From a virus: DNA of 64,000 bases. The notes beneath the pieces are model-generated. The model had not been told where the DNA came from and did not search any database. It was given only the letters and a program-made list of their open reading frames with translations. The first letter of the stretch is position 1, and the number at the start of each line of letters is the position of its first letter. Both the position numbers and the translations under genes were made by a program. Below are positions 2,613-63,050 of this stretch, one piece after another. The stretch spans positions 19,463-83,462 of IMG/VR virus record IMGVR_UViG_3300026488_000246; one strand, 5' to 3'.

Positions 2613-3368
2613 ATGGAATCTCCGTCTTTCATTTCTATATTGATTAAGACAGGGATTGTTATTCTTCTACTCGATATTTTTCATCTGTATGTGTTAAAAT
2701 CTAGACTATCATCTATAAAAAGCTTCATTTTTCATCCAAATCGCCTTTTGTATGCTTTACTTGCAGTTATGTTGTCACCGGTAATTTATCTTAGCTGGTG
2801 TTTCATACAGAATAAACAAGAAAAATCTGTTATGTTTCTAGGTTATCCTATGAATGTAAGTATGGCTGAGATGATGATAGTGATAAGCTTTACTATGACT
2901 ACAATACTGTTATGCATATTGATGTATGTAGAAGAATTAGAAGAAACTTATCTACATCTTGATAGATTGAATCTTCTTAGAAAACTATCGCATTCAAGTC
3001 AGATCATTGATAAACTCGTAGAACTCGCCGAAATGGATGCGGATATTAAAGATATTACGCATATTGTTGAGAAACCGTTGTTTATAGGTCCATTTCTTAC
3101 AAATTTTGACAGATTACTTCCATACATCCTTGTCGATATGGGATTTAGTAAGGATTATCCTGTCTTATTAGAAGATGAAGAAAAGAGACCAATTCTGATA
3201 AACTGGATCTTGTATTGGATCTCATACCCTCGGTCAGAATGTTCCAAATTCTCTGAGAAAATTCAATCCTTAATCAAGAGAGCTAATGAAAGATATAAGA
3301 AGAAATACGTACATGAAATAACAAATCAACTGGAATCTCAAAGAGATAATCTGAAGAGATTGACGTAG
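2613..3368 (+). CDS. Multi-pass membrane protein, paralogue of the preceding gene
   Basis: This is an unrecognised 251-aa protein with three hydrophobic segments (about residues 8-28, 41-62 and 85-108). A C-terminal domain resembles the protein encoded at 2047-2589 over about 110 residues, including VEKPLFIGPFLTNFDRLLPYIL and NWILYWIS. AAGGAGG at 2601-2607 precedes the ATG. The paired arrangement suggests tandem duplication with divergence of the membrane part. No catalytic motif is visible. Confidence 0.75.
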   Translation: MESPSFISILIKTGIVILLLDIFHLYVLKSRLSSIKSFIFHPNRLLYALLAVMLSPVIYLSWCFIQNKQEKSVMFLGYPMNVSMAEMMIVISFTMTTILLCILMYVEELEETYLHLDRLNLLRKLSHSSQIIDKLVELAEMDADIKDITHIVEKPLFIGPFLTNFDRLLPYILVDMGFSKDYPVLLEDEEKRPILINWILYWISYPRSECSKFSEKIQSLIKRANERYKKKYVHEITNQLESQRDNLKRLT

Positions 3369-3397
3369 AGAACCACAAACTTTAGCAGGAGGTCAAT

Positions 3398-3949
3398 ATG
3401 GTTGAATTAGAGAGTACTAAATGGTACAAACAGAAACTTGAAGAGCTTACTAACAATGAAAATGATGAGAATAACGATGATACACGTAACGTACCCATAA
3501 ATGATACATCCATTTATAACATCAGAGAGTCTTATGAACTCTATAGAAAACATGTACTTGAACCTTTAGTTGAAATATGTAATGAATTGCTCGAAACATT
3601 CAAAGTTGAATTAATTGAAACGTTTAGGCGTGATATTGATAAGTTTGCATGTAGAGATATGAGTTTATCGTCCAATGATGCAAGACTTCTCGAGATGTAC
3701 TACCAATGTAAACCTAAGATACAAGCTATAAATGATTCGCTTATGTTCATTTGGAAACACGATGTCTTTACTGATCTTATTGATTTCGTTATAATTAGAC
3801 CGAAATTCATACCAGATTTCATTAGAGTTTTGAGAAACAATTTCATGGGCCTTATTCCAGGAATTGAGAAACGACTTGATGAAATAGCCGATTACGCCAG
3901 AAGTTTACGCAAGGTTAAAGATGGTAAACGGAATCAGCAAGGTAAGTAG
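3398..3949 (+). CDS. Unknown soluble helical protein
   Basis: This is a 183-aa protein of unknown function, with AGGAGG ten bases before the ATG. It begins with an acidic, Asn/Asp-rich linker (about residues 18-35) and continues as a predicted helical protein. No membrane segment or known motif was seen. It shares the operon with the two membrane proteins upstream. Confidence 0.7.
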   Translation: MVELESTKWYKQKLEELTNNENDENNDDTRNVPINDTSIYNIRESYELYRKHVLEPLVEICNELLETFKVELIETFRRDIDKFACRDMSLSSNDARLLEMYYQCKPKIQAINDSLMFIWKHDVFTDLIDFVIIRPKFIPDFIRVLRNNFMGLIPGIEKRLDEIADYARSLRKVKDGKRNQQGK

Positions 3950-4016
3950 ACAGCGTCATCTTACGTGAATGATAGATTTCAATCTCTAGCAAAATCTCAA
4001 TACAAGGAGATGTAGT

Positions 4017-4142
4017 ATGTGTGGAATAGTTGGTTGTTTCACAAGAGAAGGTGCAGTTGATAAGGATGTTATCAGAATCTTATTCAAACACAATGAAAAA
4101 AGAGGAAGAGATGGTTGGGGTTACGTAGTTTGTGATACATAA
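4017..4142 (+). pseudogene. Truncated copy of the class II glutamine amidotransferase (first 41 codons)
   Basis: AAGGAG at 4004-4009 precedes an ATG whose product begins MCGIVGCFTREG, nearly identical to the intact amidotransferase at 4831. Similarity stops abruptly at 4138, after the bases GATAC. The following bases match the 3' end of the 2047-2589 gene instead, and a TAA at 4140-4142 closes the frame. The fragment keeps the catalytic Cys2 but lacks nearly all of the domain, so it is most likely a dead remnant, though it could still be translated into a 41-aa peptide. Confidence 0.85.
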
Positions 4143-4240
4143 AAAAGTATATGCAGAAACTCTTGGAAAATTCGGGGAACCATAAAGATAAGTTAAAGAA
4201 ACTAGCACAGTAAGTTTTCGTAAGAGAGGTATGAAATGCT
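4134..4240 (+). repeat. Duplicated 3' end and leader, copy of about 2511-2617
   Basis: This stretch closely matches the last ~26 codons of the 2047-2589 gene, its stop codon, the intergenic bases and the ribosome-binding leader of the following gene. Shared blocks include ATGCAGAAACTCTTGGAAA and AAGTTAAAGAAACTAGCA. It was joined to the amidotransferase fragment at a five-base microhomology (GATAC). It now supplies the leader of the gene at 4236. Confidence 0.85.
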
Positions 4241-4673
4241 GGTTGCGATAGATTTGATTCGTATTATGGTCGATAAACTACGCGAAGATTATAAAGAGCG
4301 CGAATTGACTATGTTGTTAGGTCTATCCTACATAGTAGGCTGTTTAATCGGATTGGCAATCCTCGTTTTAGTTAGCATACTCTCAAACTATAGTCCTATG
4401 ATGGGTATTATGGAAGTTTTCCTGTTTGGGTTTTGCGTATCCATAATTACCTTCCCTCATATATTGGACGATATGGAATTGATGCCCAACAGCCTTTTGG
4501 AACCACTATTGGTTTCAGGTATTATCGGGACTTTCGCTGGAATAACAGCTTTCGGTTTTGAGATAGGTTGGTTTATTTGTAGACTATGTACAAAACTGTA
4601 TCGTGGATTAGAAATGAGTCTTCGTAGAGAAGAATCTAATAAGGAAAAGTTAAGTAATCTCTCCGATAAATGA
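4236..4673 (+). CDS. Small membrane protein
   Basis: This is an unrecognised 145-aa protein with three probable transmembrane segments (about residues 28-50, 55-75 and 88-115) and a short charged cytoplasmic tail. GAGAGG lies 6 bases before the ATG, in a leader duplicated from the region before 2613. It resembles the neighbouring membrane proteins in size and topology, but I see no clear sequence relationship. Confidence 0.7.
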   Translation: MLVAIDLIRIMVDKLREDYKERELTMLLGLSYIVGCLIGLAILVLVSILSNYSPMMGIMEVFLFGFCVSIITFPHILDDMELMPNSLLEPLLVSGIIGTFAGITAFGFEIGWFICRLCTKLYRGLEMSLRREESNKEKLSNLSDK

Positions 4674-4830
4674 GGGATGGTTAAACTTGAAGGATGTTTC
4701 AGCAGGATTTGTCACTAATTCATCACGGGCTGCTATATACACTTTCTTGAAGAGGCTGAGCTTTACTTAAGACAGCTTTAAGAATGCTAAATTTATAAAC
4801 CAATGAATTCTTCTGACCGAGGTGATGTAC

Positions 4831-5589
4831 ATGTGTGGAATAGTTGGTTGTTTCACAAGAGAAGGTGTAGTTGACAAGGATGTCATTAAAATCCTATTCA
4901 AGCATAACGAAAAAAGAGGCAGAGATGGTTGGGGATATGCTGTTTGTGATACTGTTACAGGAAATATTATGCAATGGTACAAGACTGCTAAAGCATTTTC
5001 TGAAGATAGAGTGGAAGATGCCTTACCAGACACCTTATATCATAGACAATTATTGATCGGTATATGCAGGGCTAAACCGGAAACAGAAGTTGAAACAAGA
5101 GAAGAAGATCTTGATAGAACTATGCAACCAATAATCAGAGATGATTGCATACTAGTTCACAATGGTTCAATTAACACTTACTATGATAATTGCGAATCTT
5201 GGAAAGAAACAGATATAGATTCTGAATGTATCATCTATCAATACAGAAAGAGAGGATTTCCAAAGTTTGTAGAGCATATACCAGGTGGATTTGCATTCAT
5301 TCTATTTGACCAGATATCAAGGCAATTAGTAGTAGGCGTTAATCACATGCCTCTATATCACATGTATATCAAAGGAATTGGTTACTTTATTTCATCAGTC
5401 AAAGAAGCTTTGGATGAAATACTTGATTACTATTACCATGTAAAACATGATGGTTTGAATCTTTGGGAAGCTTGGTATCACACAGAAGTTACAGCATTTA
5501 CGGTAAGGCAGATTGATTTAGATTCTGGAATGGATAAGTGGCATACATTCAAACCACTGTATCTTCTACCTAATGAAAAGATTAGCTAA
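4831..5589 (+). CDS. Class II glutamine amidotransferase, stand-alone domain
   Basis: The protein should hydrolyse glutamine to release ammonia for an unidentified acceptor. After removal of Met1, Cys2 becomes the N-terminal nucleophile (MCGIVGCF). Family motifs follow: RGRDGWGY, GICRAKPETE, DDCILVHNGSINTYYDN and GGFAFILFDQ. At 252 aa it is only the GATase domain, with no synthetase or isomerase partner fused or adjacent. ATG 4831 is chosen because the family requires MCG and GAGGTGA lies just upstream. A broken second copy at 4017 shows that the gene was once duplicated. Confidence 0.9.
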   Translation: MCGIVGCFTREGVVDKDVIKILFKHNEKRGRDGWGYAVCDTVTGNIMQWYKTAKAFSEDRVEDALPDTLYHRQLLIGICRAKPETEVETREEDLDRTMQPIIRDDCILVHNGSINTYYDNCESWKETDIDSECIIYQYRKRGFPKFVEHIPGGFAFILFDQISRQLVVGVNHMPLYHMYIKGIGYFISSVKEALDEILDYYYHVKHDGLNLWEAWYHTEVTAFTVRQIDLDSGMDKWHTFKPLYLLPNEKIS

Positions 5590-5617
5590 TGAAAACAACT
5601 TCAAAAGGAGGTATGAG

Positions 5618-6364
5618 ATGTCAAAGGTCTATACGGTTAAAGGATTCAAAGAAAACGATTTCGTAACACTTACTTTTGTACCAGATTTAGGGCTTTCACT
5701 TTTAGCTAGTATCGGAAACTTTTCAGCAACTAAAACTATGGTTAGTCAACCACAACCATTGGAAAGCTTAATTATCGAAGCTGATGAAAATCGTTATGAG
5801 CTTGTAAAGAATGCTTCACCTCATGGTGTTTCGCGAAATGTGATTAGGAAAGTTGTAGAAGCAATAGGCAATCTTGATGGATTGCTTAATCCAGATTTCA
5901 AAAGGTTATCCGGATTAAGGGAGTTAGTAAAGAACGATTTAGAACCTTCAGATATTACAACACATCAACTACTGAAAGTAGCATATTTTGATGAGCGTAG
6001 CAAAAAGTATGCTACTGTTACATTTCGAGTTCCAACTTTTCCGAAATGTTATGAAATCATAGAGAAAGTTGCAAATGATGTCTATGAATTCCAACTACCA
6101 AATGGAGAAATAAACATACCTCATCCAGTTGTGTATGCATTAGCTACAAACAGTCTATTTAATGCAGAAACTTCAAATACAGAAAAATTATCGGTGACGT
6201 TTACAAACGAACAAACAGTCATGCTTCATTCAGACTCAGAGCAAACATTCCCAAGGCGAATTCAAGATATAGTTATCACTGGAAATGCAATACTTTATGC
6301 AAACTATGAGTTTGTTACTAGTTGGAGAGTTTCACCAACAGATCGGTGGGTATATATCAAGTAA
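5618..6364 (+). CDS. Unknown phage protein
   Basis: This is a 248-aa protein that I cannot assign. The ATG at 5618 is chosen because AAAGGAGG lies at 5604-5611; an earlier in-frame ATG would overlap the amidotransferase. The sequence is mixed alpha/beta, with no membrane segment. Two segments (KGFKENDFVTLTFVP and KVAYFDERSKKYATVTFRVP) resemble each other and may mark an internal duplication. Confidence 0.7.
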   Translation: MSKVYTVKGFKENDFVTLTFVPDLGLSLLASIGNFSATKTMVSQPQPLESLIIEADENRYELVKNASPHGVSRNVIRKVVEAIGNLDGLLNPDFKRLSGLRELVKNDLEPSDITTHQLLKVAYFDERSKKYATVTFRVPTFPKCYEIIEKVANDVYEFQLPNGEINIPHPVVYALATNSLFNAETSNTEKLSVTFTNEQTVMLHSDSEQTFPRRIQDIVITGNAILYANYEFVTSWRVSPTDRWVYIK

Positions 6365-6380
6365 GTTAAAGAGGTCATGA

Positions 6381-6599
6381 ATGAAATTCGTTTTGGTTTA
6401 TGATGAGTATGGGAACGACAGTCTTGAGACATGGACTCTTTATGCTACCAAGATTCCACAATTACCAGATGAAATAGACGATAACTTTATCGATGAGCAT
6501 TTTGTTAGAATAGTAGAATCTCAATGCTCTATGGACGGAAATATTGATGCTTGTTATGAACGATTTAGTGATGATTCTAAATACCATAGAGTATACTAG
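6381..6599 (+). CDS. Small acidic unknown protein
   Basis: This is a 72-aa acidic protein without a recognised family. GAGGT lies at 6371-6375 ahead of the ATG, and the gene sits 16 bases after its neighbour and directly before a strong hairpin, so it is the last gene of the operon. Confidence 0.6.
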   Translation: MKFVLVYDEYGNDSLETWTLYATKIPQLPDEIDDNFIDEHFVRIVESQCSMDGNIDACYERFSDDSKYHRVY

Positions 6600-6605
6600 T
6601 ATCAT

Positions 6606-6636
6606 GGGGACTAGGTCGTTCTTAGGCCTAGTCCCC
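6606..6636 (+). terminator. Intergenic hairpin without U-tract
   Basis: A perfect 10-bp stem GGGGACTAGG/CCTAGTCCCC has an 11-nt loop. No T-run follows, so it is either an unusual terminator or a transcript-end stabiliser. Confidence 0.55.
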
Positions 6637-6668
6637 AATAAACTAATTCAATTCCCTAAGGAGTTGCG

Positions 6669-7112
6669 ATGAGTGCACAACCTGAAAAACACGAAATCTT
6701 TGATTGGGAGCTACCTTTCAAATTTGGTGAGAATGAATTTGAAACTGAAAGATGGTGTGTCTTAGAAGAGTTTCATATGCCGTTACTTTTCATATCTGAG
6801 AGTGGAAACTTGCTATTGCTTCTAGAAGAAGGAGATGACTACGAAGATGAATGGTTGTTAATTAAGTGTCCTATAGCTTTAGCTATTCAATATTTAGCTG
6901 GTTCAAAAAGCTTACATGATTTGATTTTCAATTCAGCAACAGATGTTTATCGTGTGCTTTGGAACGTTAACAAAGATCACCTTGATGTTGTAGAGAAAAT
7001 TTCTTCAGACAAACGTTTGGAGTATCTTATAGCAGGGCTTGACTTAACCTCAAAAATTTATAGGACCAACAAAACAGAATCTCTTTTGAAGTTTTTCACT
7101 CAAGAGGTTTAG
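6669..7112 (+). CDS. Unknown acidic protein
   Basis: This is a 147-aa acidic protein of unknown function, flanked by two hairpins and therefore probably its own transcription unit. TAAGGAG precedes the ATG. There is no membrane segment or recognised motif. Confidence 0.65.
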   Translation: MSAQPEKHEIFDWELPFKFGENEFETERWCVLEEFHMPLLFISESGNLLLLLEEGDDYEDEWLLIKCPIALAIQYLAGSKSLHDLIFNSATDVYRVLWNVNKDHLDVVEKISSDKRLEYLIAGLDLTSKIYRTNKTESLLKFFTQEV

Positions 7113-7147
7113 TTTCGAGTAAAGATTCATTTATATTTTATCAGAAA

Positions 7148-7184
7148 GAGGATCAGACAGTTTCTCTTGCTTAGCCTGATCCTC
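7148..7184 (+). terminator. Intergenic hairpin without U-tract
   Basis: The stem GAGGATCAG/CTGATCCTC (9 bp, large loop) stands between two genes. No T-run follows. Confidence 0.5.
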
Positions 7185-7210
7185 GAAGAAACTTTAAAAG
7201 GAGGTACAGC

Positions 7211-7780
7211 ATGATGAAAATCAAAGAGAAAATGGAGAGGATCTGGGAGAATCGTCTTAAACTTGCTCTCTCCCTATTTGGAGTAAAGGAGCTAGAGGGT
7301 GAAAGACCTTTCCAACCTCATTCTGAAGAGGAGAGAAAGGTAATAGAATTTGTCAAGAAACAAGATCCAGATGTTAAGATTGTTGAAGTTCCAGGTCTAT
7401 CAGCTTTAGGTATTGTAGGTTTCTATGATGCACGCCATCACAAAGTCTTCATTGAATCTGAACTTTGTGGTTCAGCTCGCATCGGAGCATTACTACACGA
7501 ACTGGGTCACGCCTTAGACAGAGACTACTTCCTAACTAAAGCTGCTGATTATCCTGTAGATGTTGCTCGTCAGATTGGTGAACTAAGGGTTATCAAGAAG
7601 GCTTTCGAACTTGCTGAGGAAGCAGGTGTAAAGTTAACAAGACCAGTAGCAGCTGTCATTATAACAGACCCTGCTTACAAGCTTGGAGTAGCTCGTTATC
7701 TACTACCAATTGCAATCAAAGAAGGATTGAAAACTGTTTGGGGCTTATACAAATGGTTCTTCAATCCTTCTAAAGACTGA
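7211..7780 (+). CDS. HExxH zinc metalloprotein, probable peptidase
   Basis: The protein carries GALLHELGHALD near residue 97, the zinc-binding HExxH signature of metallopeptidases. It is 189 aa, with a basic N-terminal helix and an amphipathic C-terminal region rich in Leu/Trp. No signal peptide is evident, so it probably acts in the cytoplasm or virion. AAAAGGAGG six bases upstream supports the ATG at 7211. It opens the operon that continues with a TelA-like protein. The third zinc ligand is not identified, so peptidase activity is inference. Confidence 0.7.
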   Translation: MMKIKEKMERIWENRLKLALSLFGVKELEGERPFQPHSEEERKVIEFVKKQDPDVKIVEVPGLSALGIVGFYDARHHKVFIESELCGSARIGALLHELGHALDRDYFLTKAADYPVDVARQIGELRVIKKAFELAEEAGVKLTRPVAAVIITDPAYKLGVARYLLPIAIKEGLKTVWGLYKWFFNPSKD

Positions 7781-7800
7781 GGCCTTATGGCCTCATTTTT
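7778..7800 (+). terminator. Rho-independent terminator
   Basis: The stem TGAGGCC/GGCCTCA with a TTAT loop is followed immediately by five Ts. It overlaps the stop codon of the metalloprotein gene. Confidence 0.85.
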
Positions 7801-7852
7801 CTTATTAACAATGTATTTTATTCAACTTTGCAAACTAGAAAAGGAGGTAGAC

Positions 7853-8965
7853 ATGGAAAGAAAGACACAACCTGTAACAACCACATCAAATCAAACGGTA
7901 GCATCAACTGCAGTTGATCAGAAAACATTACAGAATCTTACAACTTTGAATGCTGATGACAAAATCAAAGTAGGAGAAGATGAGATTCAAAGGATTCTCA
8001 AGGATCCAGAAACATATGCTAAAGATCTACAAGAAACTATAGCTGCTGATGTTGCAATTATGAGATCCAAAACAATTCAGATTGCTGGCAAAGAATCTGA
8101 AGCTTTACAAAGAAATCTTGATGAATTACTTACAACATTAGACAACATTAAGCATAGCAATGATCCATGGTTTAAACAAGCTTTCAGGAAATGGTTTGGA
8201 ATTTTTAAGAAGACTGTTGAAGGTCCTGCAAGTCCTCAAGAAATTGTTGAGAAAATCAAAGAGGATCTTCTTCTACATAGAAAAAATGTGGAAGAAGTAA
8301 CAATTGACCTTATTCAGTTTGTGGAGAATGCTAAAATAGCAGATCAGAAACTAGAAAAAGCTATTCATGCTCTTTCAATAGCTGAGCAAAGAGCCACTCA
8401 TGCCTTAGATAACATTCCAAAAGATTCACCTCAAAGGATGATAGCAGAATCTAAACTTCATGCTATTCGTACTAGATTGCAAGATTTACATACTACTAAA
8501 GGAGTTGTTAATCAAGCAGAACTCACAGCATTACAAATCATTGAAACCAATAGGAAACTTATTGATGCTGTTGATAGGACTTTACATGTTGGAATGATTG
8601 CATTACAAGTATCATTAGCTATCACAGCTTCTCTGGATCAACAACAAAAAGCAATTGAAGCTGTAGCTGCAACAAGAGAATTCACTAATAGGTTGATTGA
8701 AAACAATGCTAGATTACTCAAGGAACAAACAAGAAGAACAGGAGAGCTTTACAAACAAGCACCTGTTGATCCTAAGAGACTTGAAAAGGCACTCAAGGAT
8801 ATTGTTAGCGCACAAGAGCAACTCAAGAAGATTAAGAAGGAAGCTTTACAGTTATCTAAGCAAAACATAGAGATTCTTGAGACTCTTGGGAAGAAGATAG
8901 ATCATTATAAAGGACCAATGAGAGAATCTGTGCTTGGGAACAATGATGAAATTACAATGGAGTAG
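7853..8965 (+). CDS. TelA-like coiled-coil protein (toxic anion resistance family)
   Basis: This 370-aa protein is almost wholly helical. Its C-terminal half matches the TelA family pattern, with IETNRKLIDAVDRTLHVG, then SLDQQQKAIEAVAATREF and TNRLIENNARLLKEQT. TelA proteins accompany tellurite/stress-response (Ter) genes in bacteria; their molecular role is unclear. The ATG at 7853 is preceded by AAAGGAGG at 7840-7847, while earlier in-frame codons overlap the terminator. The gene is flanked by terminators at both ends. The assignment is by pattern and should be checked by profile search. Confidence 0.65.
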   Translation: MERKTQPVTTTSNQTVASTAVDQKTLQNLTTLNADDKIKVGEDEIQRILKDPETYAKDLQETIAADVAIMRSKTIQIAGKESEALQRNLDELLTTLDNIKHSNDPWFKQAFRKWFGIFKKTVEGPASPQEIVEKIKEDLLLHRKNVEEVTIDLIQFVENAKIADQKLEKAIHALSIAEQRATHALDNIPKDSPQRMIAESKLHAIRTRLQDLHTTKGVVNQAELTALQIIETNRKLIDAVDRTLHVGMIALQVSLAITASLDQQQKAIEAVAATREFTNRLIENNARLLKEQTRRTGELYKQAPVDPKRLEKALKDIVSAQEQLKKIKKEALQLSKQNIEILETLGKKIDHYKGPMRESVLGNNDEITME

Positions 8966-11337: not shown

Positions 11338-12213
11338 ATGATACAACTAGCATTACCACAATCAGAAATCATTCTTCCTGTAACTGGTAAAGCTCTGAGA
11401 GTATTACCTCTGACAGTTAAGCATAAACTTCAAATTGCTGAATCTGAATTGCTTACTATGTCATCCAGACTTAAATTCATATCTGAATTAGCATTTGACA
11501 GAATTGTTGATAAAGATGTTTTTCAAGAAAACTATGAAACATTTCTAAGAAACGTATATGAGCCAGATATAGAAGCAATATACTATGGAGTTATGCAAGC
11601 TACATATAGGAAACCAATACCATTCATCATAACTTGTCCAAAATGTGGTCATGTCAATGAGGTTGAAGTACCTGTTGAGCAACTAATCAAAACTTTGAGA
11701 ATTAATCAAGGTGGACAAGATAAATACTATCTAGAACAGCATAAAGTTGAAATTTCAGAATATGGACTAACATTTGTACTTAAACTTCCATCATTGTACG
11801 ACATCATCAAAGTCTTCAAGTTTGCTGAGCAAAACAATTTCAACTTCCTTAAAGAATCTGTTAAAGCAGAATCATTTGAGGATTTGATGCTTAAACTATC
11901 ACCTTATGCTATACTATCTGGTTTGATTATGATTCAAACCTCAGATGGACAAGTAGTAAAGAATGATACATCAAGTATTGCTCTAATGAATGAATGTCTT
12001 GAAGTTTTGCTCAGTCTAACGGAAGATATTCTATCGGAAGTGCATGAATTTCTAGTTAAACTCAAAGGTAAGTATGCTTATGAGTTTGGATTCCAATATA
12101 TCTGTCAAAATCCAAATTGTGAATCATTTAACAATAGAGAATATCAAGAAGCTACTGTCGACATCCTGAACCAGTTTTTTCCTATCCCCATTGAAAAGTT
12201 ATTACAAGAGTAA
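11338..12213 (+). CDS. Baseplate hub/assembly protein (T4 gp26/gp28-like) with zinc ribbon
   Basis: This 291-aa protein has the layout of the T4-type baseplate hub family: an N-terminal 'LPVTGKALRVLPLT.KHKLQ' type segment and then a CPKCGH knuckle near residue 100. A second pair (CQNPNC) near 260 could complete a zinc site. It heads the tail operon directly after a 49-nt promoter-like element. Its 3' end overlaps the next frame over a T6 run (see the 12175 site), the arrangement expected of tail chaperone frameshift genes. The family assignment is moderate. Confidence 0.5.
   Translation: MIQLALPQSEIILPVTGKALRVLPLTVKHKLQIAESELLTMSSRLKFISELAFDRIVDKDVFQENYETFLRNVYEPDIEAIYYGVMQATYRKPIPFIITCPKCGHVNEVEVPVEQLIKTLRINQGGQDKYYLEQHKVEISEYGLTFVLKLPSLYDIIKVFKFAEQNNFNFLKESVKAESFEDLMLKLSPYAILSGLIMIQTSDGQVVKNDTSSIALMNECLEVLLSLTEDILSEVHEFLVKLKGKYAYEFGFQYICQNPNCESFNNREYQEATVDILNQFFPIPIEKLLQE
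12175..12190 (+). promoter_or_regulatory. Candidate programmed frameshift site (T6 run)
   Basis: The hub gene reads CAG TTT TTT CCT here. A -2 slip (or +1) on the six Ts would enter the overlapping frame, which is open from 12170 to 12490. The downstream frame has no ATG or Shine-Dalgarno near its beginning, only a TTG at 12191. Confidence 0.4.
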
Positions 12214-12490
12214 TGAATTAAGAACCACCATTCTTCAGCTTGTATACTTCTTATCTGTTGAACCTAAATTCATCTATGAATTAACAATGGACCAACTAAC
12301 AGATCTTATGGAAGGTATAAAGGATTTAGAAGAACAGTATGGTATCATTGCTAAAAAAGTAGATGAGCATAAGATTAAGGAAAAATCAAGCAAACTTACT
12401 ATAGATCATAGAAACGCTGAGCATATGATTGATGCTGTTAAAGGTATAGCTGAAACATATGAGCATGCAAAGAAAACGAGGAAACTATAA
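12191..12490 (+). CDS. Small helical tail protein, possible frameshift extension of the hub gene
   Basis: The frame encodes about 99 aa from a TTG and overlaps the previous gene by 23 bases. The only early start is TTG without a ribosome site, so the product is probably made by ribosomal frameshifting or by termination-reinitiation. The protein is helical (MDQLTDLMEGIKDLEEQYG) and of a size like the C-terminal extensions of tail-assembly chaperones. TAATG links it to the next gene. Confidence 0.6.
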   Translation: MKSYYKSNELRTTILQLVYFLSVEPKFIYELTMDQLTDLMEGIKDLEEQYGIIAKKVDEHKIKEKSSKLTIDHRNAEHMIDAVKGIAETYEHAKKTRKL

Positions 12491-12906
12491 TGAGTGAAAT
12501 ATTTGATTACGGTTTTTCTCCTCAGGAGGATGTGAGAGGATTATCGCCTACCACCTCTCCTCCTCCACTTTGTATTTTCACTCAAGGTTTAGATCTGCTC
12601 TATGACAAGATAATGAATGTACTCATGCAAAGGTCAACAGGTATATTCTATGATAGAAACTTCAAATCAGAATTAGAATCTGTTCCATTTGAGCAAGATT
12701 CTGATGAAACTAAAGAGCAGATCAAAAACATTATCTATACATCATTGACAACTAACATTGAAAATCTTACAATCGATAATATCAACATCATAGCAGAAAA
12801 ACGAGATTTTGGTGTTGTTTATACAATTGAGATAAGAATAAGATACAATCAAAAACTACAAACTTTGAAGCTTAAGCTTGATAAATATGGTCTTACGGTA
12901 GGTTAG
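12490..12906 (+). CDS. Baseplate wedge protein, T4 gp25/GPW-like
   Basis: This 138-aa protein matches the gp25 pattern: TGIFYDRNFKSELESVPFEQ, then a helix with acidic residues (ETKEQIKNIIYTSLTTNIENL) and a final beta-hairpin (YTIEIRIRYNQKLQTLKLKL). In T4, gp25 is the wedge component that seeds sheath assembly. The start TAATG overlaps the previous stop. A hairpin lies inside codons 12-26. Confidence 0.7.
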   Translation: MSEIFDYGFSPQEDVRGLSPTTSPPPLCIFTQGLDLLYDKIMNVLMQRSTGIFYDRNFKSELESVPFEQDSDETKEQIKNIIYTSLTTNIENLTIDNINIIAEKRDFGVVYTIEIRIRYNQKLQTLKLKLDKYGLTVG

Positions 12907-12911
12907 AAGTT

Positions 12912-13862
12912 ATGATATATCGAACAATCTACGGAAGTAACCTTATATCCGAATATCTTGATTTAGTTTACAATAGATACATACTCACTCAGCCAGGAAT
13001 CTTAACAAACTATTACAATTTTGATCCAGATAATTCTATCTATGATGAAACCAATCAGGTTACTTATGGAACACCTGGTGGAGAATTGAGTGGTATCAAA
13101 TATACATTAATTCATAATCTTTATCTCCCATTTGGTATGAGGACTCAAAAACAAGAAATTGACAATCAAGAGAAAGGTGTCAATGCATATGATACTAACT
13201 TTCAAATATTTCTACCATCAGTTTATCATATAAGACCATTCAGGTATGATTTAGTAGCTTTTAGACCAGACCCACAAGGTGATACTCAGGTATTTCAAGT
13301 TGCTGGTATTGAAGAATCAACTCTTTCCAATAATCCGAGAAACTTTGGGTGGTATCTAAATCTTAAACCAACCTACCTTAAAGAAGACCAAATTCATATA
13401 AGCAAAGAAAAAGCTTTCGATATTACAACCAATACGATTCAAGATATCGATGTATACAACAAAAGGTTGAAACTTTTCATATTAGCAGACAAACTAAACA
13501 AGAAATTAAGGTCATATTACAATGAAATAGTTAATAGCTTCATTGATGAAATGAATCAAATCTACAAAGGTTTTGAAAATCTGATTATAGACGTCAGACC
13601 TTACATACAGAAATATTTTGTGGATCAAAACTGGCTTTATTTTTCTAAGAAAGATTCAAACTTTGATAAGAATTGGCAAACATTTTTGCTCACTAAGAAT
13701 CCAGAGGTTCTTGGATTGGATAAAAGTACACCTTTTGATCCAACAAACATTGAAACTAAAACACCTCCAGAACCAGAAATGGTTGATACTTTATCATTGC
13801 TAGATACATTCATTTTCGTATACAAACTAAAACATTGGTTAGAGGGAGAATATGATGAATAA
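12912..13862 (+). CDS. Virion structural protein, probable baseplate wedge component
   Basis: This is a 316-aa protein of unknown family placed between gp25-like and other tail genes, so a baseplate role is inferred from position only. It has an N-terminal beta-rich part and a helical part (about residues 190-240). No enzyme motif was seen. Confidence 0.6.
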   Translation: MIYRTIYGSNLISEYLDLVYNRYILTQPGILTNYYNFDPDNSIYDETNQVTYGTPGGELSGIKYTLIHNLYLPFGMRTQKQEIDNQEKGVNAYDTNFQIFLPSVYHIRPFRYDLVAFRPDPQGDTQVFQVAGIEESTLSNNPRNFGWYLNLKPTYLKEDQIHISKEKAFDITTNTIQDIDVYNKRLKLFILADKLNKKLRSYYNEIVNSFIDEMNQIYKGFENLIIDVRPYIQKYFVDQNWLYFSKKDSNFDKNWQTFLLTKNPEVLGLDKSTPFDPTNIETKTPPEPEMVDTLSLLDTFIFVYKLKHWLEGEYDE

Positions 13863-14496
13863 GGAAGTTAGAAAGGTGAAAATTTTTGATAGACAACTAA
13901 ACAAAGATAAAATGAAATCTTTAGCTGGTGAAGTTCATATTAAGGTTATCGATAAAGATGGTAACATTATTGATACTAAGAAACAAAACACTGTTGTAAT
14001 AGCTGGTAGAAATGCTATGATGCAAAAAATGACCGGTATTACTTACACTATTCAAGATGATGCTGGAAATAACATAACCGATGCAAAAGACTATGTATTG
14101 AATTTCTTTGCAGTTGGTTCAGGTGGTGCTCCAACTTCTGATCCATTTAATCCTACATCCCCTAATCAGAATGATTACAAGCTTGCAAACTATGTATATA
14201 TTTCTGACCCAAATGAACATGTAGCTAATGATAAGATTCATAAGCTTATTGATAGCAAGACATTCAAGAATTCTACAACATTACTTGTTGCTTTTACACT
14301 AGATTTCAATGAAGCAAATCCAAAACAAGCTGGAAATGGTGACAGAGTTTTCATAAATGAAGCTGGATTATTTCTAACTACAACAACAGATACAACTTCT
14401 GTAGATTCGTTCATTATGCTTACAAGAGCTACTTTTTCAACGGTGGAGAAAACACCTGATAGGAAGTTGGAGTTTGAATGGTTCATCTATTTCTAA
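13855..14496 (+). CDS. Tail/baseplate structural protein
   Basis: This protein has the general layout of phage wedge/collar proteins: VVIAGRNAM early on, LNFFAVGSGGAP, an INEAGLFL motif and a final FSTVEKTPDRKLEFEWFIYF strand. Such proteins decorate or connect baseplate and fibres. ATG 13855 is preferred to 13852 for spacing from AGGGAGA; it overlaps the previous stop. Length is about 213 aa. Confidence 0.6.
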   Translation: MNKEVRKVKIFDRQLNKDKMKSLAGEVHIKVIDKDGNIIDTKKQNTVVIAGRNAMMQKMTGITYTIQDDAGNNITDAKDYVLNFFAVGSGGAPTSDPFNPTSPNQNDYKLANYVYISDPNEHVANDKIHKLIDSKTFKNSTTLLVAFTLDFNEANPKQAGNGDRVFINEAGLFLTTTTDTTSVDSFIMLTRATFSTVEKTPDRKLEFEWFIYF

Positions 14497-56376: not shown

Positions 56377-56847
56377 ATGGAACTAATTTTCAAAAATGCA
56401 AGTATTGTAGGAGTATCCAGGAAACCATCTAAGAAACTTTCTATTTGCAAAAACGAGGTACATCCAATCTTTCATATTGAGTGTAATCCTAATGAATGCT
56501 TTATGGGAATGTTTGTGCGTCGTAGTACATCAGGGTTAATATCCAAGGAAAAAGCACAAGCTTTCTGCAGTACCGAAGGAGTATCTGTTTTGTATATGGA
56601 CTTTATCAGTGAATTTTATAGCAAGATTCTCAAATCTGACTTCTTTATGGCGTTTCTTCTCTTGGAAGAGAATGCAGAATCAGCTATAGCTAAGGTATTC
56701 AAAAATGATGGAAGATACTTTTATACAAGATTCGATACATATCAACCAATGAGAATAATGAGTTTATTTTCACTGTATGAAGAATTCTGGAGTAAGTTTC
56801 TAAGTGCTGTGCATTTTATAAGCATTAACTCGAATAAGGAGATTTAG
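56377..56847 (+). CDS. Unknown protein
   Basis: This is a 156-aa protein, first after a 49-nt element, starting at ATG 56377 after GAGGAG. It contains several Cys and aromatic residues in its first half, but no clear metal motif. It ends at the start of the next gene. Confidence 0.6.
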   Translation: MELIFKNASIVGVSRKPSKKLSICKNEVHPIFHIECNPNECFMGMFVRRSTSGLISKEKAQAFCSTEGVSVLYMDFISEFYSKILKSDFFMAFLLLEENAESAIAKVFKNDGRYFYTRFDTYQPMRIMSLFSLYEEFWSKFLSAVHFISINSNKEI

Positions 56848-56849
56848 TG

Positions 56850-57485
56850 ATGGACAAAGGAAATTTCTTACTTGAATTAGCAAAGCATTTCTATACGGAT
56901 CTTGAAAATGTAACAACTCCGCCTAAAGAATTGCATAAGAAGGTAATTTATTGGTCATCAAAGGTCGTATTGAATCTAGAAGAGAATGCTTATGATTGGG
57001 AAACAAACCTTTATTATCTTTCCAGATATAGCTTAAGTCTTTTACTTGTCAAGTTTGCTAATGGATATAGAAACGATTTATTCAAACTTCTTGTGCAATT
57101 TTCCAAAACAAGCTTTAATGATGATGGAGTAACCTTAGCTCATAAGTTGGCCAGTCTTTATGATCATCCTGTATTTATAGCATGTTTGCCTGATCTTGTT
57201 GTAGAATTTACATCTCTTGATAAGTTTATTGATCTTTTACCCTACATAAAATCTTTGCATTATATACGAATCTTATATTGTAAAGATTCCTATCCCAAAC
57301 TATGGTTGTTGGATAATGCATATGTACCTGATACAGTCATTATTCATAAAGCTTTTGATGAGTTAGGTAAACAAGCAACATATGAAGTCATTCGTAATTA
57401 TTACTTGAAGCATCTACCTACTCAACCTAAATGTGAGGAATATAGATGTGAAAATCTACAAAGTAGATGTAACTCTAAAGAATGA
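56850..57485 (+). CDS. Unknown helical protein
   Basis: This is a 211-aa helical protein. ATG 56850 is chosen with AAGGAG at 56836-56841; a GTG at 56847 overlaps the previous stop. The last ~20 residues have three Cys (KCEEYRCENLQSRC). It overlaps the next gene by 38 bases. Confidence 0.6.
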   Translation: MDKGNFLLELAKHFYTDLENVTTPPKELHKKVIYWSSKVVLNLEENAYDWETNLYYLSRYSLSLLLVKFANGYRNDLFKLLVQFSKTSFNDDGVTLAHKLASLYDHPVFIACLPDLVVEFTSLDKFIDLLPYIKSLHYIRILYCKDSYPKLWLLDNAYVPDTVIIHKAFDELGKQATYEVIRNYYLKHLPTQPKCEEYRCENLQSRCNSKE

Positions 57486-58315: not shown

Positions 58316-58780
58316 ATGAAGATAGGTCTTTTTGGAGGTTCATTTGATCCATTTCATGAAGGACATCTTGCAACAGCTTTGAATCTTCTTCAATATTTAG
58401 ATAGAATCATTTTCATACCAACATACCAGAATCCATTAAAGCAACACAAACCCATGTTTAGTAATGAAGAAAGACTTGAGTTGATTAAGCAAGTTTGTAA
58501 GTATTTTCCAGAATTCGATTATAACGACTATGATATTGTAACCGAAAATTGTTTTACTATCAATACAGTGAGACATCTCTCAAACCTTTATCATGATGCA
58601 GACTTATATTGGATTCTAGGAGATGACGCTTTCATCAAACTTCTTAGGTGGAAAGATTGGAAATCGTTATTCGATTACGTTAAACTGATTGTAGTTGAAA
58701 GAAATCAACCACTAGCTCATACTTTAAGATATGCAGATAACATTTGTAGACAACTCAATATAGAATTTTCACTAGGATGA
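58316..58780 (+). CDS. nadD: Nicotinate-nucleotide adenylyltransferase (NadD-like), interrupted by an in-frame TGA
   Basis: NadD makes the dinucleotide precursor of NAD from nicotinate mononucleotide and ATP. The N-terminal GLFGGSFDPFHEGH (residues 4-17) is the nucleotidyltransferase signature, followed by IIFIPTYQNPLK and WILGDDAF. The frame stops at TGA 58778-58780 after 154 aa. It continues in the same frame to 58945 with the missing C-terminal motif ISSTQIRKQL; the total of about 209 residues is the normal family length. Either readthrough makes the full enzyme, or this is a nonsense mutation or error. Confidence 0.8.
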   Translation: MKIGLFGGSFDPFHEGHLATALNLLQYLDRIIFIPTYQNPLKQHKPMFSNEERLELIKQVCKYFPEFDYNDYDIVTENCFTINTVRHLSNLYHDADLYWILGDDAFIKLLRWKDWKSLFDYVKLIVVERNQPLAHTLRYADNICRQLNIEFSLG

Positions 58781-58945
58781 TCTGAGAAGTTTCCTCTCAT
58801 TCTGATTTATGATATTGAAACTCCAAGTATTTCATCAACTCAAATAAGAAAGCAACTTAATAGCAAACATGATTATCTAAAACAGTTTGAATCCATTGTT
58901 AGGAGATATCATGAGCACACAAAAGAAAAAGCCTCATCCAAGTGA
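58781..58945 (+). pseudogene. C-terminal part of NadD beyond the in-frame stop
   Basis: These 54 codons encode the ATP-contacting ISSTQIR segment and the final helices of NadD, in frame with the upstream part. There is no suitable internal start or ribosome site. The last 35 bases overlap the start of the glycosylase gene, as expected for a compact operon in which the whole frame was once functional. Confidence 0.75.
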
Positions 58946-59915
58946 ATTGCTATGGAGGTGGTTCTTTGAATCTAATGATCCTGAACCACCTCCTGAACTT
59001 GTTGATAATCCACAACTTACACATGTAACAATCATTTCATGTTTCCCTATGAATCAACAACTTAATGCTCATCTTGTAAACAGGTTATCAGGATTTAATC
59101 TGTATAGTATATCTAAACGGGATTTACTTAAACGATTAAAAGAACTGATAAGACGGTTTAAGGTAAGTCCTTATGATTACTGGACACTAGCCCAAAAGAA
59201 ACCTCATCAAGATCCATTAGCCAAATGCTTATGGAGACACTATGAAATTAAACCACAAGATTTATCTTATGTGATTGAAGTATCTGGTGGAAGACAGGTT
59301 GTTGAATCGTTATGTGGTAAGGCTGTAAAGCTTAAGAAAAACCAAGATGAGAATGATGTATTTTCTCATCTTGCTAACTTGATTCAACAGCAAAGTAAAT
59401 CCAATGCTTCTAATTCAGGATTACAACAAACCTTAGAAGATTACAAACAATGGATTATAGATTTACTTTCCACTAAAACAACAGTATGCAATTATGAAGG
59501 ATGTAGAGATTGTCCTTTAAGAAATCAACCATTCGTACCCCCAGATTTCATAATCAATGATCCATCAAGGAATGAAGTTGATATCATGATAGTAGGTATG
59601 AATCCTTATGTAGATGAAGTTAAGCAAGGTAAACCATTTGTTGGGAGATCTGGAAAGAAACTTAGGGAAGTCCTTTCTAAGATCTTTGATAAGCATAATA
59701 TTGTAATCACAAATACTTGTATGTGCTTTGTGCCAGATAACAAAGATCCTGATAAACAATCGCAAGCTTGCTGTAAACCTTTACTACTTGAGCAGATCAA
59801 AAGAATTAAACCAAAGATTGTTGTACCTTTAGGAGGTTTAGCAGCTTCAAACTTACTGAATCAACCAGTATCTATAACCAAAATTGCTGGGCAAAAGTTT
59901 GAAATTGAAACCTAG
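58911..59915 (+). CDS. Uracil-DNA glycosylase (family 4-like), lacking its final motif
   Basis: This protein should remove uracil from DNA. Of its 334 residues, the first ~185 are unassigned. Then come iron-sulfur-type Cys (C193, C198, C201, C270/C272, C287/C288), the first catalytic motif GMNPYVDEVKQGKPFVGRSG (about 229-248), ITNTCMCFVP and PKIVVPLGG. It ends at ITKIAGQKFEIET, precisely before the place where family 4 enzymes have their HPS motif. That motif occurs at the start of the polymerase gene at 60297 in the same reading phase. ATG 58911 follows AGGAG. Confidence 0.8.
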   Translation: MSTQKKKPHPSELLWRWFFESNDPEPPPELVDNPQLTHVTIISCFPMNQQLNAHLVNRLSGFNLYSISKRDLLKRLKELIRRFKVSPYDYWTLAQKKPHQDPLAKCLWRHYEIKPQDLSYVIEVSGGRQVVESLCGKAVKLKKNQDENDVFSHLANLIQQQSKSNASNSGLQQTLEDYKQWIIDLLSTKTTVCNYEGCRDCPLRNQPFVPPDFIINDPSRNEVDIMIVGMNPYVDEVKQGKPFVGRSGKKLREVLSKIFDKHNIVITNTCMCFVPDNKDPDKQSQACCKPLLLEQIKRIKPKIVVPLGGLAASNLLNQPVSITKIAGQKFEIET

Positions 59916-59925
59916 GAGGTGAAGA

Positions 59926-60273
59926 ATGAATAGAAAGGAGCTAGTTAAAACTCTATTCTATCATACATCTGACTTTGTTAGAAACAAAGATCCTAAACTT
60001 GCAAAGGAAATAGTGCTAATTCTTACTGAGCTTAACGCTATGAAAGATGTCAAAACATTCATCGAACTAGCTAGAGAAGTGAATTTTGATTTAACAGATG
60101 ATATAGAATATGATACAATTGAGACACTAGGTTCTATCATTGATACGATAAGCATGTTTGATGATGAAGATGATGGAGACATATATTACCTTTATGCAAT
60201 GTCTTGTAAGTTAATGCATTACATAGAAGTTTTACTTGGAAAGAAGTTAGAAGAGATTGTCTTGCAATCCTAA
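59926..60273 (+). CDS. Small protein inserted between the two glycosylase parts
   Basis: This is a 115-aa, helical, acidic protein with AGGAGG seven bases before its ATG. It lies in a different reading phase, inside the 381-nt segment that separates the glycosylase body from its HPS motif. It has no HNH, GIY-YIG or LAGLIDADG motif and no recognised family. It could be an inserted gene that split the ancestral fusion. Confidence 0.65.
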   Translation: MNRKELVKTLFYHTSDFVRNKDPKLAKEIVLILTELNAMKDVKTFIELAREVNFDLTDDIEYDTIETLGSIIDTISMFDDEDDGDIYYLYAMSCKLMHYIEVLLGKKLEEIVLQS

Positions 60274-60296
60274 TCTGAAATTGTTAAGGGGGTCTA

Positions 60297-62621
60297 ATGA
60301 AAGTAACTGTTATTCCCAACCTACATCCATCAGCGGTAATTAGGAACACCAAACAATGGGAACCTTTATTTATTCATGCTTTTGAAAGAATTAAAGAGAA
60401 ACTAGCTATACATAATACTGCTGATTCTAAACCTGCGAAAAATGATACATTACCGAACCATACAAACAATATTATTCATTTGAATGATACGAATTTTGAA
60501 TCTATACTTAAGCAGTTAAAGGATGAAGGTTACGCGCTTATAGATGTGCAAAGATACAAGGATCTTTATGGTGATCAAGTTGTAGATCAAGGTATCTTTG
60601 CTGTTGTATCTAATGGAAAACAGAGAAAGTATTTGATGCTTAACAATGTTAGGCTTAAATACTATACATTGAGAAGAGGACAATCACCAGAACCTTTAAT
60701 GCCTTTCAATACTTTAAATCAAGAAATAGGTTCAACTTGTAAAGATATCGTTAAAGATAGATACAAAGCTATGCCAATGTATAAAGATCAAGTATACTAT
60801 AACTATGATTTTCCAATAGATGATTGGCTTGTATTACAAATAAGAGAAATCCTTGATAAGGACCCAACATACAACATTGCATTCTTTGACATAGAGGTTC
60901 ATGCAGAAGATGGTACATTCCCAGATGAAAGGCAGGCTAAATATCCTGTATCAACTATCTCTTTTGTTATAGGAAACGAATTCTATCAGCTTATAAACAA
61001 GAAACTTTTTCCGAATCTAAACGAGGAAAGAATTAAGGACCTAATCAAACAGAATGGAGTAACCATTGATAACCTGAATATCATTTACTATGATGATGAA
61101 GTTTCTATGCTAAAAGGATTTGCAAAACTTCTGAAGGATAAACAAGTAGATGTACTTACAGCTTGGAACATCTACTTCGATATTAACTATTTGGCTAATA
61201 GATGCAAAGTTATTGGTGTGGATACAGATATCTTCTCACCAATTGGAAAACCTATGTATCCTTCTGGTAAACTTGGTTTCCATATGATTCCTGGAATTAT
61301 CATAGCTGACTTACTTGAACTATACAAATCTTATGAGGGTAGAGAAACAAGATATAATCTAGATTACATTGTGGAGAAGAATCTTGGATTAAACAAAGTT
61401 AAATATGAAGGAACACTTGCAGAATTACTTCATAAAGATCCAGATTTGTACATAGCTTACTCTGCTGTTGATACCAAACTTATCCAAATGCTTGAAGATA
61501 AGAAAGGTGATCTTACACTACATTTACAACTAAAGGATCTGGCAAGAATCTCTTATCTAAACAGTTATTCAACACTAACCCAAATAGATGGACTTATGTA
61601 TCAGTATGCTAAAAAGAGAGGAATGGCTTTAAGGCAACGTCCTCTTAAAGCTGACAAATCTGGATCTTTCGTTGGTGCTTTTGTAAGGGAGCCAAGGAAA
61701 GGATACATTCCGTATGTAATTGACTTGGATGCATCATCCATGTATCCCTCAATTATGATTTCATTAAACATATCGCCAGAAACTTTTGTGGGATACATTG
61801 AAGAAGGTTCTAACCCAACATTTATGGAAAAGTTTCTGCTTACAAATGAAGTAGATGATGAAACTGTTACTGTGATAGTTAATCCTAATAAGAAAGGTTT
61901 TCTAGAAGAGCAAAGAATACAGATTAAAGTAAGAGATCTCAAGAATAAGGTCTATAGCAATAAACTTACAATTTCTCCTGCAGGGACGATATTTGATAGA
62001 TCTAAGAAAGGTTTCATTGAAGAGATTCTTGAAGACCTAATTACAAGAAGAAAAAGATTCAAGAAAGAGGCTTTGAAACTCCTTGAATCCTCCAATCCAG
62101 AAGATAAAGCCTTAGGTGCTAAATACAATGTAATACAGAAAGCTTTGAAAGTATTAGCTAACGCTATTTATGGTGCTATGGGTAACCAAGCATACAGATT
62201 CTTTGATACAAGAATTTCTGTAACAATTACTCTTACAGGACAATGGGAGATTAAGTTTGTATCTGGACTAACAGAGAAGTTCATACAACACATCATAGGA
62301 ACCGAAGAGATTTATCTTGAACCAGAATTAGATAGAGAGATTCTGAGAGAGGCAGAAGGTGAGCAACATTATGTATTCTATTCCGATACAGACTCATCAT
62401 TCATTGATATCTTTGAATTGTTAGTTAACGAGATTCCAAAAGTTATGCAAGAGCTTTCAGGACTTAGTCAGGTTACATTGGGTAACGAAGTAATCAAACT
62501 ACCTAATGATTTTGATGAAAAGTTAAAGATGTTAGTTGATGTGAAATACAAAGCATTAAAAGAAAAGCTTGAAACTGATTCCCCTATACATCCAATAGTA
62601 GCTAAAATGTTTGGAGAATGA
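60297..62621 (+). CDS. Family B DNA polymerase with an N-terminal glycosylase fragment
   Basis: This is the replicative polymerase (774 aa). The first ~40 residues (VTVIPNLHPSAVIRN, then a PLFIHAFERIKEKL helix) match the C-terminal end of family 4 uracil-DNA glycosylases, not a polymerase. Exonuclease motifs follow: FFDIEVH (D198, E200), TAWNIYFDINYL (D295), YSAVDTK (D392). Polymerase motifs are DLDASSMYPSI (D476), KVLANAIYGAMGN (about 618-630) and FYSDTDSS (D697, D699). The protein ends only 75 residues after the last motif, so the usual K-x-Y/thumb region is missing or encoded elsewhere. AAGGGGG precedes the ATG. Confidence 0.9.
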   Translation: MKVTVIPNLHPSAVIRNTKQWEPLFIHAFERIKEKLAIHNTADSKPAKNDTLPNHTNNIIHLNDTNFESILKQLKDEGYALIDVQRYKDLYGDQVVDQGIFAVVSNGKQRKYLMLNNVRLKYYTLRRGQSPEPLMPFNTLNQEIGSTCKDIVKDRYKAMPMYKDQVYYNYDFPIDDWLVLQIREILDKDPTYNIAFFDIEVHAEDGTFPDERQAKYPVSTISFVIGNEFYQLINKKLFPNLNEERIKDLIKQNGVTIDNLNIIYYDDEVSMLKGFAKLLKDKQVDVLTAWNIYFDINYLANRCKVIGVDTDIFSPIGKPMYPSGKLGFHMIPGIIIADLLELYKSYEGRETRYNLDYIVEKNLGLNKVKYEGTLAELLHKDPDLYIAYSAVDTKLIQMLEDKKGDLTLHLQLKDLARISYLNSYSTLTQIDGLMYQYAKKRGMALRQRPLKADKSGSFVGAFVREPRKGYIPYVIDLDASSMYPSIMISLNISPETFVGYIEEGSNPTFMEKFLLTNEVDDETVTVIVNPNKKGFLEEQRIQIKVRDLKNKVYSNKLTISPAGTIFDRSKKGFIEEILEDLITRRKRFKKEALKLLESSNPEDKALGAKYNVIQKALKVLANAIYGAMGNQAYRFFDTRISVTITLTGQWEIKFVSGLTEKFIQHIIGTEEIYLEPELDREILREAEGEQHYVFYSDTDSSFIDIFELLVNEIPKVMQELSGLSQVTLGNEVIKLPNDFDEKLKMLVDVKYKALKEKLETDSPIHPIVAKMFGE

Positions 62622-62626
62622 ACTAA

Positions 62627-62658
62627 AGGGATGGTAACCATTCTTGGTTACCATCCCT
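62627..62658 (+). terminator. Strong hairpin after the polymerase gene
   Basis: The 14-bp perfect stem AGGGATGGTAACCA/TGGTTACCATCCCT with a TTCT tetraloop is followed by AAACTGCTTTT. Confidence 0.75.
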
Positions 62659-62867
62659 AAACTGCTTTTATGGAGATGGAACGTCTAAGTTTCGATATTG
62701 TAGATTGTAGCGAAATCTCACTTTAGAGTGTTTCATATTCATTTATATTCAACTGAGGGGTCTAGGTTGTTTTTTCAACCTGAATCTGAAAAACAAACAA
62801 GAACCTAGGTAATCTCTAAGTTTTCAAAGATTACCTAGGCCTGGGAGAGTTAATCTCTCCCAATAAT
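62659..62867. other. Non-coding region with three further hairpins
   Basis: No ORF with a ribosome site is present. Hairpins occur at 62764-62781 (AGGTTG/CAACCT), 62804-62839 (CCTAGGTAATCT/AGATTACCTAGG, 12 bp) and 62842-62862 (TGGGAGAG/CTCTCCCA). Confidence 0.65.
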
Positions 62868-62976
62868 CTCCTACAATCGGCTTAATGCAGACTGTAGGAG
62901 CAGATTTCCATCTTTTCAATGAATTGAATGTTGTTTGCATAGCCTTTTGGCTATGTATGATTAGAAATCTTTTTAA
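62868..62976 (+). ncRNA. Candidate structured small RNA
   Basis: The hairpin CTCCTACA/TGTAGGAG (62868-62875/62893-62900) is followed by an outer stem AGATTTC/GAAATCT (62902-62908/62964-62970) that encloses CATAGCC/GGCTATG with a TTTT loop (62938-62955). The outer stem runs into TCTTTTTAAG, a U-tract like that of an intrinsic terminator. No protein is encoded. The fold is seen by eye; the RNA is a prediction. Confidence 0.45.
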
Positions 62977-63050
62977 GAGTCCCTTCATTTAACATTTATT
63001 TCAAATGTAAGTTCTATAACGTAAATTACAACCGTTTTAAGGAGGTGGAT

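Follow-up and report, generated by a model that had tools for sequence, protein, structure and literature searches.

Uracil-DNA glycosylase (UDG) domains front many phage DNA polymerases, and the functional importance of this link is hard to test. In continuous phage fusions of a UDG with a family A polymerase (Thermus phage phiLo, PDB 9qhs; ctfzr933; about 50 IMG/VR contigs), a family 4-type UDG stands at the N-terminus of the replicase. A UDG is likewise held on a family B replicase in the vaccinia holoenzyme E9-A20-D4 (PMC3946371). Certain phage enzymes, including Aeh1 NrdA and gp43A/43B of the T4-related phages 25 and 44RR, are encoded as one enzyme in two open reading frames (ORFs) that need to reassemble; they do so and have been shown to be active (PMC2988022). 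The locus described here combines these two known themes, the phage UDG-polymerase fusion and the split phage enzyme. It lies in a 64-kb stretch of viral DNA (the window; positions 19463-83462 of the 147,462-base IMG/VR virus record IMGVR_UViG_3300026488_000246) whose genes include ribonucleotide reductase, RecA-like, structural and polymerase genes. We consider it likely that the locus encodes a naturally split family 4-type UDG, made as two chains, tethered to the replicase and derived from a UDG-polymerase fusion. As far as the literature searched shows, a split UDG on a polymerase is undescribed; no paper on a split UDG was found.

A UDG fold divided between two reading frames

The elements of the locus are as follows.

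58911..59915, + strand: truncated UDG (chain 1), 334 aa; Pfam UDG match, structural model, 58% identity to its counterpart in a second phage (L007, below)
59926..60273, + strand: small ORF in the break, 115 aa, other phase; no Pfam or PHROG family
60297..62621, + strand: family B DNA polymerase (chain 2), 774 aa, exonuclease and palm/fingers, no thumb; phrog_262 and Pfam matches
60297..60431, + strand: last strand, HPS loop and last helix of the UDG domain, as polymerase residues 1-45; hidden Markov model (HMM), Pfam and structural model; absent from family B polymerase relatives
60324..60332, + strand: HPS, polymerase residues 10-12, UDG motif B with the active-site histidine (residue 10); kept in L007
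60432..60470, + strand: disordered linker, polymerase residues about 46-58; predicted local distance difference test (pLDDT) score about 33-55, 35% identity to L007 over residues 46-80

The glycosylase ORF runs from an ATG at 58911 to a TAG at 59913-59915, with the C-terminal sequence ITKIAGQKFEIET and the last residues GQKFEIET. The polymerase ORF begins MKVTVIPNLHPSAVIRN at 60297, 381 nt (127 codons) further on and in the same phase. A preliminary description of this DNA had given these frames, coordinates, sequences and spacing, together with the 115-aa ORF in another phase, and all are as stated there. Chain 1 comprises a helical accessory domain (residues 1-190) and a UDG core (residues 191-334), which matches the Pfam UDG superfamily (PF03167) at 78.7 bits (cut-off 24.3) over profile positions 7-101 of 141. 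A complete fold in the first protein had been named beforehand as the finding that would count against a split; the core proved to be without the last strand, the HPS loop and the last helix. Chain 1 is therefore incomplete by itself, ending before the UDG fold has gained its last strand and helix.

The missing part is found at the start of the polymerase, whose start codon sits in the variable-length loop preceding the last UDG strand. Appending polymerase residues 1-45 to chain 1 raised the Pfam UDG match from 78.7 to 91.3 bits (+12.6) and extended it to profile positions 7-127. After joining, the distance from PFVG to HP was 102 in both phages, compared with 98-121, mostly 101-102, in 66 intact UDGs. 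Furthermore, 64 intact viral UDGs, without either split member, were used to build an HMM of the C-terminal part of the UDG; in this blind search the two polymerases took ranks 1 and 2 among the 1116 ORFs of both phages. The gain in Pfam score, the spacing, the blind ranking and the same break in L007 all bear out the proposal that the two pieces, when joined, form a single UDG C-terminus.

This arrangement is set apart from that of other viral UDGs. A scan with UDG cores retained 80 viral loci, the L007 contig among them. At all 79 others the HP motif lies in the same ORF, as HPS or HPA in 76 and as HPR or HPQ in three. No second UDG gene was found elsewhere in the 147-kb record. A KKPHPSELL sequence near residue 7 of chain 1 was considered as a permuted second HPS motif and rejected, as it is not conserved in L007.

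The same break in a second phage

L007 (IMGVR_UViG_3300026512_000234) is a contig of a second, related phage, uncultured like the first. Its polymerase is 65% identical to that of the window and its UDG chain 58%. The L007 UDG ends GQEFTISI and its polymerase begins MQIKVIPNLHPSAVIRN; the gap of 789 nt (263 codons) again preserves the phase and contains two ORFs of 58 and 201 aa. Because the break recurs here although different genes lie in it, an assembly artefact is excluded. Joining the L007 pieces raised the Pfam UDG score from 59.9 to 73.9 bits (+14.0), the match then reaching profile position 134 (7-134). A polymerase bearing this N-terminus with no UDG gene upstream would have told against the split; the sole relative, that of L007, has a truncated UDG gene upstream.

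The catalytic segment has been retained on the polymerase in two phages that are about 60% identical, even though evolution has cut the gene. The sequence VIPNLHPSAVIRN (polymerase codons 5-17), which forms the last UDG strand together with the HPS loop, is identical in 13/13 residues, with 7 synonymous and 0 amino-acid differences (nonsynonymous proportion, pN, 0); synonymous sites are near saturation between the phages, so such substitution ratios are rough. Beyond this segment, identity to L007 falls to 29% over codons 18-45 and 35% over codons 46-80.

The 201-aa gene in the L007 gap is related to a window gene upstream of the UDG (56847-57485), and an HNH gene located 2.6 kb upstream of the UDG gene in the window lies immediately upstream of it in L007. 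These displacements indicate that the gene neighbourhood of the UDG changes, whereas its internal break stays where it is. Between the 58-aa ORF of L007 and the 115-aa ORF of the window there is weak similarity (E 0.002, a single comparison), and the small ORFs in the two breaks may share a common descent. The intervening ORFs match no family, and thus no endonuclease was found at the break.

Predicted structure and family membership

For structure prediction with AlphaFold2, the window DNA was translated through the gap, with stops read as Gly and the 127 gap codons serving as a linker, and aligned with 66 other rows. The read-through model scored a pLDDT of 91-98 in the UDG core, 94-98 in the polymerase segment and mostly 27-46 in the gap, and the last strand, HPS loop and helix were all in place. 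The top Foldseek match of this model was a family 4 UDG, 4zbx, aligned over 325 columns and across the gap (template modelling score, TM, 0.76 by target). When the polymerase was modelled alone, residues 1-20 scored 30-43 and the helix at 18-37 scored 49-65, with order beginning from about residue 59.

Within chain 1, the residues relevant to function are the following.

59595..59609, + strand: motif A, GMNPY, residues 229-233; GEAPG or GEGPG in intact relatives
59637..59639, + strand: F243 of PFVG, in a column nearly invariant in intact UDGs; presumed, from what is known of family 4 UDGs, to stack on uracil
59712..59714, + strand: N268 of ITN, in a column nearly invariant in intact UDGs; taken here to be a uracil-binding residue
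59502..59774, + strand: span of four iron-sulfur (Fe-S) cysteine positions, C198, C201, C272 and C288; nearly invariant columns, kept in L007

The PFVG, ITN and four-cysteine features of family 4 UDGs are thus present on chain 1 in both phages, and the cysteine positions predict an Fe-S cluster there. The HP[SA] motif and last helix are also present, but on the polymerase chain; the domain is not whole in one polypeptide, the stop at 59913-59915 intervening here and another in L007. Motif A reads GMNPY, for which we class the protein as a UDG superfamily member that is family 4-like rather than canonical family 4. SMUG1-type enzymes have GMNP as their motif, and the PY of GMNPY recalls family 1 UDG. 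Given these resemblances, uracil excision by the split UDG is plausible, although its details may differ from the canonical reaction.

The helical N-terminal domain (58911-59480, residues 1-190) is 72% identical in L007 over residues 61-125 and matches no family.

The polymerase chain

Chain 2 matches phrog_262 (E 1.2e-98, profile positions 90-630 of 856) and also Pfam DNA_pol_B and exo1. The T4-type motifs FFDIEVH, YFDINY, DLDASSMYPSI, ANAIYGAMGN and YSDTDS align along it, and the 774-aa frame terminates after motif C. A distinct 316-aa ORF about 12 kb downstream, outside the window (G000:C1:94190-95140; L002 14591-15541), encodes the thumb; it matches phrog_1918 (profile positions 143-380, E 1.3e-8) and includes KKKAYAQYIIEREG. 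The replicase is therefore split a second time, with the thumb on its own chain. The L007 polymerase stops at the same place; no thumb ORF was found in phage records or within the L007 contig, which ends before any thumb gene becomes visible.

The stretch following the polymerase (62622-63040) has no long ORFs, contains hairpins and holds a possible minus-strand remnant of a TnpB C-terminus. Insertion of an insertion sequence (IS) was considered as the cause of the short polymerase and rejected, as L007 ends at the same place with no decayed TnpB remnant. Another family B polymerase, at L009 6009-7718 and 8404-9339, is broken near motif C into parts of 569 and 311 aa, which are separated by two small ORFs.

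Ancestry of the split UDG

Around 50 of the 79 other viral UDG loci are unbroken N-terminal UDG-polymerase fusions, and the ctfzr933 and phiLo phage records (the latter solved as 9qhs) are continuous fusions too. In a UDG tree of 66 rows, built on only 170 columns, the split UDGs of the two phages group together (100/100) within a larger clade (support 96/86) whose members are 19 fused UDGs, 1 stand-alone UDG and these 2 split ones. None of 35 family B relatives has an equivalent of polymerase residues 1-80; across 76 family B polymerase ORFs, none has HPS near its start and no same-strand UDG ORF lies beside them. A single-sequence UDG scan of viral contigs returned nothing, nor did a polymerase scan of genome contigs.

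The preliminary description had proposed that the ancestor was probably a glycosylase-polymerase fusion. Both the nesting of the split UDGs among fused ones and the absence of residues 1-80 from family B relatives favour this. Conversely, the polymerase of the continuous fusions is of family A wherever its motif is recognisable, with no family B motif found. A fused ancestor is supported, and a polymerase swap is implied as well.

Among the fusions, L072 encodes, from 6755, a 1084-residue frame joining a UDG to a family A polymerase with an apparent intein inside the polymerase domain (CLVPGTRVLAADLTWRTIETLKPGDV...AEGFLSHN).

A proposed model for a replicase-bound UDG

We propose that chain 1 would supply the Fe-S site, the uracil pocket residues and motif A, while the N-terminus of chain 2, the family B replicase, would supply the last strand, the HPS loop with the active-site histidine and the last helix. 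The predicted reassembly would most likely occur by completion of the central sheet of the UDG domain, leaving the UDG hanging on the replicase by a flexible tether of approximately 13 residues. The helical domain of chain 1 (residues 1-190) could be a replisome contact. Catalysis and coupling to replication are predictions of the same model: the active site would exist only on the replicase and would act on uracil in or near replicating DNA, such that the repair enzyme is probably completed only on the replication machine. On balance, we lean towards the fullest form of this proposal, in which the glycosylase and the replicative polymerase chains have an active site in common, uracil is removed only on the assembled replicase and the two genes specify an obligate UDG-replicase, which would belong to a larger replicase with three or more chains (UDG, polymerase and thumb).

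The predicted course of events would begin with a UDG-polymerase fusion. Subsequently, the family A polymerase would have been replaced by a family B polymerase, and a small gene would have been inserted in the variable-length loop, bringing a new stop, ribosome-binding site and start; these two steps could have occurred in either order.

If the chains do reassemble, uracil excision would depend on the replicase by construction, offering a simple test of replicase-coupled uracil removal. The protein would also be a natural split glycosylase, with part of one enzyme's active site residing on another enzyme.

Weighing the alternatives

Several points tell against a split, replicase-tethered UDG. 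The split has been seen in two phages only, and its support is computational throughout. The AlphaFold2 joint fold was judged by pLDDT, without inter-domain error values, and only two sequences cover residues 1-80 in the alignment for the polymerase alone; with so shallow an alignment, the contrast in pLDDT is partly an effect of depth. A continuous fusion of a UDG with a family B polymerase, as the ancestor, was not found among the viral loci scanned. Finally, motif A is GMNPY rather than GE[AG]PG in both split members, and this change may mean that the chemistry is altered or lost.

The last point lends itself to another explanation, namely that the pieces still come together, but in a domain that has lost uracil removal and acts instead as a structural bridge or processivity factor in the manner of vaccinia D4. 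An altered motif A in both phages and a conserved extra helical domain in chain 1 would suit such a role, and D4 with A20 provides a precedent as a polymerase cofactor (PMC3946371). We nonetheless judge loss of excision to be unlikely: the HPS loop is identical in all 13 residues, and F243, N268 and the four cysteines have been retained.

It is very unlikely that the break simply inactivated the UDG, leaving chain 1 and the polymerase segment as relics that do not associate. Both frames remain intact in two phages despite near-saturated synonymous sites, and the catalytic segment has undergone no amino-acid change. That genes decay here is indicated by the adjoining NadD, which carries an in-frame TGA. 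This NadD-like gene (58316-58923) has its TGA at 58778 and the frame continues beyond it; read-through lifts its Pfam match from 84.1 to 95.7 bits, and the TGA may reflect a pseudogene, recoding or a sequence error.

Production of one chain through RNA splicing or translational bypass across the gap might be suspected from the shared phase in both phages, although we hold it to be extremely unlikely. The Shine-Dalgarno-like GGAGGTG of the 115-aa ORF overlaps the UDG stop codon TAG, and the polymerase ORF is preceded by its own G-rich Shine-Dalgarno-like sequence and its own ATG; with such a sequence and a start codon for each ORF, glycosylase included, the shared phase means little. The two gaps, of 381 and 789 nt, are dissimilar in what they contain as well as in size, and the ORFs within them have signals of their own. 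A search of both gaps against Rfam found no intron family, even at a permissive threshold (E 1). Equally, inspection of the sequence ends revealed no intein halves at the junction, on either side or in either phage, in agreement with the earlier statement that neither an intron core nor an intein motif is visible there. As each piece has its own translation signals, and neither an intron nor an intein half lies at the break, reassembly of a split UDG from two chains is the most likely state.

Joining of the pieces by protein trans-splicing through split inteins is scarcely credible: chain 1 ends GQKFEIET (GQEFTISI in L007), chain 2 leads straight into the strand, and neither side bears any intein sequence in either phage, notwithstanding that apparent split-intein halves occur in the RNA polymerase genes of this phage. 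That the polymerase N-terminus resembles the C-terminus of a UDG by chance, as the shortness of the segment and a best single-domain score of just 9-11.5 bits might suggest, has a negligible probability and was ruled out by the first rank in the blind search of 1116 ORFs, by a position downstream of a UDG lacking exactly that part, by the exact spacing and by the second phage.

Other features of the phages

Multisubunit RNA polymerase beta/beta' pieces in L006, at 2671-4719 (- strand), 5405-7936 (- strand) and 11579-13963 (+ strand), have ends resembling intein halves, such as ...CPVDSPE/CLHPDTIVYKYDS... and ...LFAIQNSKVLSHN/SQNIGAVQHF..., and thus apparently contain split inteins. Both phages carry pairs of an IS607-type serine recombinase and TnpB (window 3-2010; L004 2820-4782; L007 545-2531, - strand); a search with the TnpB gene for a clue to the host returned none. 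Additionally, a repeated protein family of about 110-150 aa with the common N-terminus M..S..F.TNSS is found at L002 11544 and 15975 and at L004 7337, 7812, 12245, 12661, 14376, 14854 and 19063.

Comparison with known systems

The split UDGs nest among the continuous fusions, each of which unites a complete UDG with a family A polymerase in one chain; in the present case the polymerase is of family B and the UDG is interrupted within its fold. With the family 4 UDGs (1ui0, 1vk2 and 4zbx) our protein shares the fold, the cysteine positions, PFVG, ITN and HPS, but it differs in its GMNPY motif A, its active site spread over two polypeptides and its extra N-terminal helical domain. T4-type phage family B polymerases share the exonuclease and polymerase motifs and are 25-31% identical to chain 2, which differs from them in its extra 80-residue N-terminus and in having its thumb encoded separately 12 kb downstream. 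Vaccinia D4, a complete UDG from a different family, is bridged by A20, and no active site is shared there (PMC3946371). Both pieces of Aeh1 NrdA, and likewise of gp43A/43B, are parts of a single enzyme, interrupted by a homing endonuclease or by untranslated sequence (PMC2988022); at this locus, one piece is carried by a different enzyme, and no endonuclease match was obtained for the inserted ORFs.

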